Origin: Luminiphilus syltensis NOR5-1B
GTDB lineage: Bacteria; Pseudomonadota; Gammaproteobacteria; Pseudomonadales; Halieaceae
NCBI RefSeq assembly: GCF_000158175.1
Contig: NZ_DS999411.1
Location: forward strand, 902,596 to 966,595
Length of the DNA stretch: 64,000 nucleotides
Reading direction: 5' to 3'
Both the position numbers and the translations under genes were made by a program. Positions 2,805-57,666 of this stretch are shown here, piece by piece (positions within the stretch are counted from its first letter, which is position 1; the number at the start of each line of letters is the position of its first letter). The notes beneath the pieces are model-generated. The model ran no database searches and was not told the origin of the DNA. It saw nothing but the letters and a program-made list of their open reading frames with translations.

Positions 2805-4961
2805 CTAGAACGTCAGGCGCACGCCCGCCTCGATACTTTCTCCCGGCTGCGGCGCGTAGTTACGCAAAAAAGAGGTGCTCAGACGAATCTCTTCATCGGT
2901 AATGTTTTTCAGTTTGAGGAAGGCAAACAGCTCACTGTCGCGGGACAGCTGAACGCGGTAATCGATACCGGCGTCCCAGCGGCTATAACCGTCCGTCTCG
3001 GGTTCAAAATCACCCGGATTATCCTGATCACTGGCGTTGAGAACGCGAACATAGGCCCCCATTACCTCGTCACGCCACGATAGTTCACTACCTACACGCA
3101 TCGGTGGAAGACGCGGTACATCGCCCGCACGATCAAATTCACCGGTAATCATGTCACCAAAAATGCCTATTTCGATCCTGCCATCACCAATGCGGCCAAG
3201 TTCAAAGCTGGACTCAAACTCCACACCGTAAAAGTCAGCATCGTCCTGCTCATAGAGATAGACCGGGGTCTCATCGATATCCTCTCCTGAATTCAGTAGG
3301 AAAATGTAATCACTGAACGTGTTGTAGAAGACCGTCAACTCGGCGAAGGACCGCTCGTTATGCCAACTCAGTGACACGTCCGCGTTAATCGACACTTCGG
3401 TGTCAAGATCGGTGTTACCAATTTCGATGATCCCGGTTGCCGCATGGGTCACCAGCGCTTCGCCCGTATTATTCAAGTTCGAGAAAAGCTCCTCAGTTGA
3501 AGGCGCGCGTTCGGACCGCGCCAGCGATATGCCCAGATTCCAGTCGGGGGCTATCGAGTACAACGCCGTCCCCGACAGGCTGAAACTGGTGAAGTCTTCA
3601 CTCGATCCTGTGGAAGGATCGCGCTCTACGGCATCAACACGCCCGCCCGCCTCGAACAACCAGTCGTCGGTATGAAAATCCTGAACATAAAATACGCCCC
3701 ACTCCGATGACTCGGTCTCGGGTACATAGGCCTCTTCACCCACGGCCTCAAAGTCATCAATACGCCACTGAAGGCCCAAAACACCGTGGTCAGCGCCTTC
3801 GCGCACCAGTTCAAGCCGTCCCTCGTAGGTCTCTCGATTAAATCGGGTGCCCACTTCAACACCCTCCAGTTCCACATGCTGGTAATCGGTGTAGGTCAGA
3901 AAACCGCGCATCACGTCCACCAGACCGGGCATCAAGTTATGCATATGCAGCTGGGCGTCATAGCGCTCCTGCTTCATATCGATACGAATAGTCTCTTCCT
4001 CCTCGTCGTCCACATCCCCAACATGTTCTTCGCCGTCGTGCTCCTCCTGGTTCCCGTCATGCTCCTCTTCATGGCCATGCTCGTGGGCACCGGGGGGAAT
4101 CCCGTAGTTGGTCTCAAAACGGTTGTAAGCCAGACCAAAAAAGTCGCGCTCACCAAAATGATAGGCCCCGCCCAGGGTAAGTACGTCGGCATCACCATCC
4201 GTGTTGGCAATAAAACCATCGGAGTTGTCAAACTCTTCTTCCTCGTGATCGTGATCCTCCCCATGGCCTTCTTCATGCTCGCCACCCAGGAGTTCCTCCT
4301 GCATCTCGACCGCTGACTCGTCAATGGCCAGGCCCGGAACGTCGAGGTCTTCAAAGTCGCGGAAGGTCCCGCTCACGTGAAAGGCAAAGTCGCCTGTGCC
4401 TCCCTCCAGCTTCAGCACGCCGGTATTCATTCCAGGCGCATCATCGTAGCGGTACTCGACAGCTCCGTTCAGCCCATCGATCCGTTTACCTGGGATCCGG
4501 TTATCCAGAGTGTTGATGACGCCGCCAATGGCACCACCACCGTAAAGCAGTGTCGACGGGCCACGCAGCACTTCAACCGACTCCGCCAGCATAGGCTCTA
4601 TACCCACGGCATGATCGGGACTGAGGCTGGAGACATCCGCGGCGGCAATACCGTTGGTTAGATTGATGGTTCGCGGACCCGATTGCCCGCGAATAACCGG
4701 TCGGCCTACCCCAGGACCGAAAGATGAGTTGGAGATGCCCGGTTTATCACCCAGGGTTTCACCTAATGTGCCGGAGACCAGACGCCGAAGTTCGTCGCCG
4801 CTCAATACAGTGACGGGCAGGGCGGTCTCCGCCGCTTTTTTATGAAGAGGCACGGAGACAAGCACGTGCTCCATCGGGGTGTTGGTGGTGCTGTCATCCG
4901 CCGCTGCGGGCAGGGTCACGGCAGCTGCCACAAGGCAGCCGCAAAAAATATCGCGTTTCAT
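2805..4961 (-). CDS. TonB-dependent outer-membrane receptor, ZnuD-like (probable zinc uptake)
   Basis: A 718-residue receptor beginning at the ATG at 4961, where MKRDIFCG starts a signal peptide ending near AAADD; the frame stays open upstream but without a signal peptide. A TonB-box-like HVLVSVP follows, then a plug with GRPVIRGQSGPRTINLTNG and VEVLRGPSTLLYGGGAIGG, very close to the neisserial zinc receptor ZnuD. The barrel ends in the terminal aromatic VRLTF. Two external loops, about residues 218-245 and 289-322, are packed with His, Asp and Glu, as in ZnuD. Zinc is therefore the likely substrate, though other divalent metals are possible. A small His/Cys secreted protein gene sits 46 bases upstream in the same direction. 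Confidence 0.88.
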   Translation of the reverse strand: MKRDIFCGCLVAAAVTLPAAADDSTTNTPMEHVLVSVPLHKKAAETALPVTVLSGDELRRLVSGTLGETLGDKPGISNSSFGPGVGRPVIRGQSGPRTINLTNGIAAADVSSLSPDHAVGIEPMLAESVEVLRGPSTLLYGGGAIGGVINTLDNRIPGKRIDGLNGAVEYRYDDAPGMNTGVLKLEGGTGDFAFHVSGTFRDFEDLDVPGLAIDESAVEMQEELLGGEHEEGHGEDHDHEEEEFDNSDGFIANTDGDADVLTLGGAYHFGERDFFGLAYNRFETNYGIPPGAHEHGHEEEHDGNQEEHDGEEHVGDVDDEEEETIRIDMKQERYDAQLHMHNLMPGLVDVMRGFLTYTDYQHVELEGVEVGTRFNRETYEGRLELVREGADHGVLGLQWRIDDFEAVGEEAYVPETESSEWGVFYVQDFHTDDWLFEAGGRVDAVERDPSTGSSEDFTSFSLSGTALYSIAPDWNLGISLARSERAPSTEELFSNLNNTGEALVTHAATGIIEIGNTDLDTEVSINADVSLSWHNERSFAELTVFYNTFSDYIFLLNSGEDIDETPVYLYEQDDADFYGVEFESSFELGRIGDGRIEIGIFGDMITGEFDRAGDVPRLPPMRVGSELSWRDEVMGAYVRVLNASDQDNPGDFEPETDGYSRWDAGIDYRVQLSRDSELFAFLKLKNITDEEIRLSTSFLRNYAPQPGESIEAGVRLTF

Positions 4962-55738: not shown

Positions 55739-56614
55739 TCAGGCAGCCAGTCCGGTCCGCAACTTCTTCATGGCGTTGGCTTCAAGCTGCCGAATTCGTT
55801 CGGCGGAAACACCGTGCTCGGCAGCCAGCTCGTGCAGAGTCGCCTTTTTCTCCGCCAGCCAACGGCGCGCCAAAATGTCCTGACTGCGGGCATCGAGCTG
55901 CGCTAACGCCGCGTGCAATCGCGTCTCGTCATCGGCGCTGGAATTCGCAGCCTCAACCGCCACCGCGGGGTCAGAAGACAGGTCTTGCAGATAATGCTGC
56001 GGCGCCTGCCACGCGTCATCGTCATCGGCATCGGAGGGCGCATCAAAAGCCATATCGCGGCAGGACAACCGCCCTTCCATGCGCTGAACCTCGGCCTCAG
56101 GAACGCCCAGATCTTCAGCAATGGCCTGAGTTTCACTATGAGTCAACCAGCTGAGATTTTTCTTCGCACTGCGAAGGTTGAAAAAGAGCTTACGCTGCGC
56201 CTTGGTGGTCGCGACTTTGACAATACGCCAGTTACGGAGGATGAACTCGTGCATCTCTGCCTTGATCCAGTGAACTGCAAAAGAGACCAGCCTGACCCCC
56301 TTGTTGGGATCAAACCGCTTCACCGCCTTCATGAGGCCCACGTTGCCTTCCTGAATAAGATCGGCTTCCGCAAGTCCATAGCCAGAGTAGCTTCGGGCGA
56401 TATGCACAACAAAACGCAAGTGAGCAAGTACTAACTCACGCGCAGAGGCAACACATTCGCCATAGTATAGCTTTTCAGCGAGCGCTTGTTCGCGCTCTGC
56501 CGACAACATTGGGATGGTACCTACCGCCTGGATATAGGCCGGGAGATTGGCCCCCGGCGCCATGCTCAAAGCAGCGCCGTGTCCCAGTGAGAGGGCTTTG
56601 TCTGAAGCTGCCAC
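55739..56614 (-). CDS. rpoH: RNA polymerase sigma-32 (heat shock)
   Basis: RpoH directs transcription of heat-shock chaperone and protease genes. The 291-residue protein starts at a GTG at 56614 with GGAGGAT eight bases upstream. Region 2 shows LVLAHLRFVVHIARSYSGYG, DLIQEGNVGLMKAVKRFDP and the -10-reading RLVSFAVHWIKAEMHEFILRN; the RpoH box is QRKLFFNLRSAKK; region 4.2 contains VSAERIRQLEANAMKKLR. An exact CIRCE element lies 32 bases upstream of the start, suggesting HrcA repression of rpoH. It follows ftsX on the same strand. Confidence 0.97.
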   Translation of the reverse strand: MAASDKALSLGHGAALSMAPGANLPAYIQAVGTIPMLSAEREQALAEKLYYGECVASARELVLAHLRFVVHIARSYSGYGLAEADLIQEGNVGLMKAVKRFDPNKGVRLVSFAVHWIKAEMHEFILRNWRIVKVATTKAQRKLFFNLRSAKKNLSWLTHSETQAIAEDLGVPEAEVQRMEGRLSCRDMAFDAPSDADDDDAWQAPQHYLQDLSSDPAVAVEAANSSADDETRLHAALAQLDARSQDILARRWLAEKKATLHELAAEHGVSAERIRQLEANAMKKLRTGLAA

Positions 56615-56645
56615 TGTTAGATCCTCCGTTGTTAACCGCGCAAGT

Positions 56646-56672
56646 TTAGCACTCTCTCTTAGAGAGTGCTAA
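56646..56672. promoter_or_regulatory. CIRCE element (HrcA operator) upstream of rpoH
   Basis: TTAGCACTC-N9-GAGTGCTAA matches the CIRCE consensus with no mismatch; the repeat extends to 12 bp arms around a three-base loop. It lies between the ftsX stop and the rpoH start. HrcA, the CIRCE repressor, is not encoded in the window. Confidence 0.93.
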
Positions 56673-56712
56673 CCGGTAAAAGTTCCTCTCATGCAGCCCC
56701 GGTTACCGGCTC

Positions 56713-57666
56713 TCAGCGAGGCTCCACCCGGCGCAAATGCACTGCTGTTGCCTGCCACGCGCTCATCAACCCGACGGCACCGCCAATCAGTACTAACTGT
56801 AATGCCCCGATGGCACCCAAACCCATGAGCACCTTATCGCTGTCATAGAGCCGCAACAGCTCGTTAACCGGAGGCGCTAGGAGCCATAGCAGTCCAAATA
56901 CGAGGCCGCTGGCGATGACGCCACCGCCAATGCCATACCACAGCCCGGTGTATAGAAACGGGCGGCGCGCAAAACCGTCGCTGGCGCCAATCAGCTTGAT
57001 AACGACAATCTCAGCGCGCCTCGCTTCGATTTCGAGGCGAATGGTATTCGCAAGTGCCAAAAGGGCACCCACAAGCATCATGGCCCCTATGGCATAGGTC
57101 AATCGGCGGCCAAATTCCAGTGCGCTGATCAGACGCTTGATCCATCGCGTATCGAGAACCACCTGCGACACTTCCGGCATACGATCGAAAACTGCCGCCA
57201 GATCAGCCAGCGCCGCCGCACCCATTGCTATCGGTCGTACCACAACCGTATGCGGTAACGGGTTGTCGTCAAGTGTAGCCACTACCGCTGACAGCCCTGT
57301 GTCCGCCGCAAATTCTTGCAGCGCCCGGTCAGCGGGTATAAGTGTCGCAGTCGCCACATCGCTGCGCTGGGCCAGATCAGCAACAAAGTCTTCGGCGGCG
57401 GCCTCTTCGGTATCGGCTTGCAAAAACAACGAGAATTGGGTTGAGCGATCGACACCGGCGGTTAGCCGGTCAATATTATCCAGCGCCACCAGAACCGTCG
57501 CGGGTAACGCCAGAGAAATGCCGAGGACCAGCCAGGTCAACAGCGTGGATATCGGTGTCAGTAGTTGTTTGTTAAGGCTCTCATAAGCCGACTGTCGATG
57601 ATGATGCAACCAACTGTTAAAGCGAGACCGCGGACCCGCCCCCAAACCCTTCGCCTGTGCGCTCAT
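56713..57666 (-). CDS. ftsX: Cell division protein FtsX
   Basis: FtsX is the membrane half of the FtsEX complex that controls peptidoglycan hydrolases at the septum. The 317-residue protein has a basic cytoplasmic start, one helix (ISTLLTWLVLGISLALPATV), a periplasmic loop with TEEAAAEDFVADLAQRSDV, and three C-terminal helices with EIEARRAEIVVIKLIGAS. It overlaps ftsE by four bases. An out-of-frame weak terminator was not seen before rpoH. Confidence 0.95.
   Translation of the reverse strand: MSAQAKGLGAGPRSRFNSWLHHHRQSAYESLNKQLLTPISTLLTWLVLGISLALPATVLVALDNIDRLTAGVDRSTQFSLFLQADTEEAAAEDFVADLAQRSDVATATLIPADRALQEFAADTGLSAVVATLDDNPLPHTVVVRPIAMGAAALADLAAVFDRMPEVSQVVLDTRWIKRLISALEFGRRLTYAIGAMMLVGALLALANTIRLEIEARRAEIVVIKLIGASDGFARRPFLYTGLWYGIGGGVIASGLVFGLLWLLAPPVNELLRLYDSDKVLMGLGAIGALQLVLIGGAVGLMSAWQATAVHLRRVEPR

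Follow-up and report, generated by a model that had tools for sequence, protein, structure and literature searches.

In Escherichia coli, sigma-32 is controlled chiefly through its translation, its stability, and the binding of chaperones, while its gene, rpoH, is transcribed from several promoters without HrcA. The P3 promoter of rpoH is transcribed with RpoE, whose -35 element is GGAACTT (PMC8103513, available part). The activity of HrcA, the repressor that takes CIRCE as its operator, is promoted by GroE in Bacillus subtilis, Chlamydia, and Campylobacter, and the Campylobacter HrcA is itself heat-sensitive (PMC8533110, available part). In 2004, a CIRCE was predicted to precede rpoH of Geobacter sulfurreducens (PMC545781, Table 8, in the part of that paper available). 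Here, we analyzed an rpoH locus of Luminiphilus syltensis NOR5-1B where these systems may meet. A predicted site for HrcA lies on the putative rpoH promoter, and this arrangement recurs in many related bacteria. The results suggest that, directly at the DNA, a first stress sensor gates a second one.

The window, i.e. the whole 64-kb stretch of DNA that was analyzed, was the subject of an earlier note claiming a perfect CIRCE with arms extended to 12 bp in front of rpoH. The motif scan bears this out: positions 56646-56672 show 0 mismatches to TTAGCACTC-N9-GAGTGCTAA, and the two arms (56646-56657 and 56661-56672, 12 nt each, with 3 nt between them) are fully complementary. The element is intergenic, because ftsX ends at 56713, and it lies upstream of the rpoH GTG as claimed, at a distance that we count as 31 nt instead of the 32 bases given. 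Its placement in front of the gene was correct as to position, but the element also contains the -10 box of an overlapping sigma-E-type promoter and contributes to another, weaker sequence that resembles a promoter (Table 1). With up to 3 mismatches allowed, it is the sole CIRCE match of the window, shuffled windows gave a mean count of 0.01 and a maximum of 1 (100 shuffles), and none of 650 shuffled rpoH regions contained a CIRCE at up to 3 mismatches. Hence, these shuffles rule out a chance palindrome, in agreement with the note. We also rejected the reading of the palindrome as a terminator of ftsX, since the scan found no terminator-like site. The note further proposed a search of the genome for hrcA and for additional copies of CIRCE, and both are there. 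The single contig of this genome, 3.26 Mb long, has 2 CIRCEs when up to 3 mismatches are allowed, one at rpoH and one 93 nt before groES of groESL. It encodes one copy of hrcA (PF01628, E 1.5e-63, above the family cut-off), with an uninterrupted frame of 409 codons, an rpoE above the cut-off of TIGR02939, and a single rpoH, with one match above the cut-off in the whole genome.

Table 1. Features of the rpoH upstream region and its neighbors, in positions of the window
Feature	Positions	Strand	Basis and remarks
CIRCE, predicted HrcA operator, TTAGCACTC-N9-GAGTGCTAA, 12-bp arms	56646..56672	.	Exact match, arms, conservation before rpoH
Extended -10-like sequence TGC-TAAACT (right CIRCE arm plus three bases)	56643..56651	-	Last T conserved
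TTAGCA, possible weak -35 of the sigma-70-like sequence	56667..56672	-	Proposed from 4/6 matches to TTGACA and an 18-nt spacer
Sigma-E-type -35, GGAACTT	56680..56686	-	7/7 match; fixed distance from the rpoH CIRCE in the class
Sigma-E-type -10, TCTAA, inside the CIRCE spacer	56659..56663	-	16 nt from the -35; register comparison
rpoH (sigma-32), GTG start	55739..56614	-	TIGR02392, 385.4 bits vs cut-off 323.1; PRK06596 cut-off also passed
ftsX, gene preceding rpoH, context outside the switch	56713..57666	-	TIGR00439, 272.2 bits vs cut-off 255
GGAGG, probable ribosome binding site of rpoH	56623..56627	-	8 nt before the GTG

The palindrome is kept before rpoH in relatives, another point that the note had proposed to check. 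CIRCE at up to 2 mismatches was found in 107 of 146 relatives, and the 30 CIRCE loci taken from this search comprise 14 before rpoH and 16 before groES. Within the genus, 51 of the 57 genomes have an rpoH match, and all 30 loci examined, which are the best-scoring ones, have a mismatch-free CIRCE before rpoH. Among 80 named rpoH loci, CIRCE (up to 3 mismatches) was identified in 17, i.e. 11 Halieaceae-like top matches (L037-L047) plus L054, L061, L098, L109, L110, and L116, and it is absent at this threshold from the loci of Pseudomonas, Halomonas, and Marinobacter in this set. In the class, 353 of the 370 sampled genomes have an rpoH match at E 1e-90, and we surveyed the best-ranked 130 of these by score, a choice in which weaker rpoH matches are under-represented. 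At up to 3 mismatches, a CIRCE precedes rpoH in 106 of 114 hrcA-positive genomes, and is thus missing in 8 of these, against 3 of 16 hrcA-negative genomes (Fisher p 4e-10, ignoring relatedness, i.e. with related genomes counted as independent). The hrcA-negative genomes with the element are G225, with 1 mismatch, and G209 and G324 (loci L218 and L206), where CIRCE is decayed (3 mismatches) while GAACTT, TCTTA, and TGTTAAnaT are retained. Since these two genomes hold decayed copies, remnants do exist, and the rpoH CIRCE of the window might be read in the same way, as a disused ancestral operator, or else as a chance palindrome. We consider this highly improbable, since hrcA is intact here, CIRCE is perfect here and in the 30 genus loci although their flanks and spacers vary, and chance is excluded by the two sets of shuffles.

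The sigma-E consensus used in this analysis places a TCnnA -10 element at 15-17 nt from the -35 element. The rpoH upstream region fits this form with GGAACTT-N16-TCTAA (56686-56659), and in the 64 kb of the window, with both strands searched, GGAACTT-N15..17-TCnnA occurs at this site alone. The rpoE gene of this genome is preceded by GGAACTT-N16-TCTCA, with the same spacing as at rpoH, as expected if RpoE reads GGAACTT-N16-TCnnA in this organism. For E. coli, RpoE with its -35 GGAACTT and the transcription of rpoH P3 are also covered by PMC5493296, in its available part. When the 109 class rpoH sites are aligned on CIRCE, a GGAACTT block becomes visible whose end is 9 nt from the palindrome, on its upstream side. 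Allowing one mismatch, GAACTT occurs 8-10 nt upstream of CIRCE in 79 of these 109 sites, and is exact in 50, as compared with 2.6% of shuffled flanks and none of 17 groESL sites. In the same alignment, a TCnnA placed 16 nt past GAACTT spans the junction where the left arm passes into the spacer. Its letters are partly fixed by those of CIRCE, and therefore its A provides a free test: it is found in 80% of the rpoH sites vs 18% of the groESL sites. A search for the composite pattern GAACTT-N6..12-CIRCE returned 83 of the 370 class genomes, with 0 for the reversed control among the matches listed, and 82 of these 83 genomes have hrcA, vs 277 of 370 overall. All 30 of the composite sites that we examined are before rpoH; outside these, the site of G308 is on a contig that differs from that of its listed rpoH.

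The distances between these elements point to a promoter. In the window, the gap between GAACTT and CIRCE is 7 nt and TCTAA is two bases deeper in the spacer, which keeps the spacing at 16. A GAACTT-like box was found in 120 of 168 distinct sites, and 108 of these 120 hold 15-17 nt to TCnnA, one has 18, and 11 are without TCnnA in either register. The register of TCnnA is shifted by two in all 4 sites with a gap of 7 (window included) and in 5 of the 24 with a gap of 8. Such compensation of the spacing is what one would expect from a promoter, but not from an operator. The box is nevertheless missing from 11 of the 30 genus loci that have CIRCE and the extended -10 (L296, L297, L301, L302, L303, L305, L307, L308, L310, L312, and L315, all with CIRCE and TGCTAAAAT kept). 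Since RpoE is above the cut-off in 9 of the 11 corresponding genomes, we rejected the idea that the loss of GAACTT in the genus follows the loss of rpoE, and it follows that, even within the genus, rpoH can do without control by sigma-E. Conversely, G050 has a GAACTT-like box and no RpoE above the cut-off. Across these loci, CIRCE is the constant part of the arrangement, and the predicted sigma-E box is frequent yet dispensable. Among the named loci, 23 of the 63 without CIRCE, whatever their hrcA status, have a sigma-E-type pattern before rpoH, vs 3 of 1260 shuffles. These patterns, together with the elements retained in G209 and G324, fit an old sigma-E promoter at rpoH with a predicted operator that was retained only while HrcA was present. 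In four rpoH loci without a full CIRCE (L048, L053, L083, and L095), a left-arm remnant, e.g. TTGGCxxTC, is found inside the sigma-E-type promoter.

The right arm of CIRCE is part of a second promoter-like sequence. The last T of TGCTAAnnT is outside CIRCE, and is present at rpoH in 30/30 genus, 14/14 order-level, 17/17 named, and 101/109 class sites, vs 1 of 17 groESL CIRCEs. The left arm, as TTAGCA or TTGGCA, stands 18 nt before this box. The two elements together resemble an extended -10 sigma-70 promoter in sequence, with TTAGCA-N18-TAAACT of the window matching 8/12 positions of the sigma-70 consensus boxes. A scan of 56560-56960, which includes TGC-TAAACT, found no sigma-70 promoter above threshold. 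It could be that HrcA represses rpoH solely via a sigma-70 promoter and that the sigma-E match of the window is a remnant or idle. The near-universal TGCTAAnnT, the lack of the GAACTT box in the genus loci mentioned above, and the fact that most of the corresponding genomes still encode RpoE are in line with this explanation. Yet the -35 element of the window matches at 7/7 positions, at N16 from TCTAA and uniquely in 64 kb, the genus members whose RpoH is closest in identity retain GAACTT-like boxes, and the sigma-70-like sequence is below the threshold of the scan. We thus regard repression through sigma-70 alone as unlikely, and favor an operator over both promoter-like sequences.

A different type of explanation would have the palindrome work as RNA, with a hairpin in the rpoH leader altering the stability or the translation of the mRNA and with the binding of HrcA as a secondary matter. 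The leader of a transcript starting further upstream does fold into the 12-bp stem (-37.2 kcal/mol, z -2.44), but a transcript from the proposed starts is missing the left arm and has an ordinary fold (z +1.50), and no Rfam family matches the leader. We rejected an RNA thermometer or a known RNA family for these last two reasons. Furthermore, conservation falls on the letters of CIRCE and not on the pairing, a hairpin leaves unexplained the asymmetric conserved flanks (GGAACTT before the palindrome and T at +29 after it), and the presence of the rpoH CIRCE tracks hrcA. There is hence very little to recommend an RNA function over an operator at this site.

No CIRCE was found before hrcA in this genome, where the best site has 7 mismatches (locus L003, G000:C1:1918266-1921928). 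Since the 8 hrcA loci examined from the class all have a CIRCE-like site (0-4 mismatches), the autoregulation of hrcA seems to have been lost here. At groESL, CIRCE is accompanied by a sigma-32-like promoter. Sigma-32-like promoters were also observed upstream of grpE (CTTGAAT-13-CCCCAT, at 2413 of locus L003) and of dnaK (CTTGAAT-15-CCACAT, at 3109 of the same locus). We rejected a loop closed through hrcA, since neither a sigma-32 promoter nor CIRCE is present before this gene in this genome. The scan for a sigma-32 promoter before rpoH found none.

Taken together, the operator, hrcA, rpoE, the single rpoH gene, and the conserved promoter-like elements, all of which are read from the sequence, make it probable that an HrcA operator overlies the promoter or promoters of rpoH and silences the gene until GroE is titrated. 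From these elements, we infer the binding of HrcA, repression, release via titration of GroE, feedback, and the use of either promoter in this organism. At rest, HrcA would be kept active by free GroE and bound at 56646-56672, where it would cover the -10 and start region of GGAACTT-N16-TCTAA together with the extended -10-like right arm, and rpoH would be barely transcribed. The operator would be freed when unfolded proteins occupy GroE or when heat inactivates HrcA, the latter by analogy with other species (PMC8533110, available part). RNA polymerase with sigma-E, under envelope stress, or with sigma-70 could then transcribe rpoH. The resulting sigma-32 would raise chaperones and drive the expression of groESL, whose own CIRCE would be opened simultaneously, and the rising GroE would restore HrcA and shut rpoH again. 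The earlier note had proposed an HrcA circuit on rpoH. The presence of hrcA and the conservation of the site support this predicted circuit, but the arrangement is not special to this organism, given the earlier prediction in Geobacter sulfurreducens.

A broader proposal is that, in most members of the class with HrcA, the operator of HrcA and the promoter of rpoH form a single stretch of DNA, in which CIRCE supplies the sigma-E -10 and a large share of a sigma-70 promoter of the extended -10 type. A repressor that reads GroE load would then gate both the envelope-stress and the basal inputs to sigma-32, and P3 of E. coli would be what remained after the loss of hrcA. We find the arguments for this extension about evenly balanced. 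If true, the two heat-shock systems would act in series across a large part of the class, and a repressor responding to chaperonin load would control the master activator. This control would act at the promoter where envelope stress also enters, resulting in an AND-like gate and suggesting how P3 of the E. coli rpoH may have originated.

We found no report of an overlap between CIRCE and a sigma-E promoter at rpoH in the open-license literature, and earlier literature on CIRCE before rpoH in this class may exist. The available parts of PMC3989490, PMC10696704, PMC3135505, PMC5493296, and PMC2824747 do not mention CIRCE at rpoH, and the word HrcA is not found in the available part of a paper about proteobacterial regulons (Leyn et al. 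2016, PMC5343134). The locus shares its operator sequence, the presence of hrcA, and a CIRCE at groESL with the systems where HrcA and CIRCE control groESL and hrcA-dnaK operons. It differs from them in its target, which is here the gene of a sigma factor. It also differs in layout: CIRCE at rpoH overlaps -10 elements, whereas CIRCE at groESL in relatives sits between sigma-70-like promoters, found before it in 11/17 loci, and sigma-32-like promoters, found after it in 13/17. As to E. coli, P3 of strain K-12 is a sigma-E promoter with GAACTT-N16-TCTGA, i.e. with the -35 and the spacing observed here, but it has no CIRCE, and the profile search controls gave no HrcA match in this species. A CIRCE at rpoH is already known in kind from Geobacter sulfurreducens, a member of another phylum in the current taxonomy, and the new part is its overlap with a sigma-E-type promoter. 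In that species, as here, a perfect TTAGCACTC-N9-GAGTGCTAA stands before rpoH (at position -51) and another at groESL, whereas its hrcA-grpE-dnaK-dnaJ operon also has a CIRCE, unlike hrcA here, and its rpoH CIRCE is described without a promoter overlap (PMC545781, available part).
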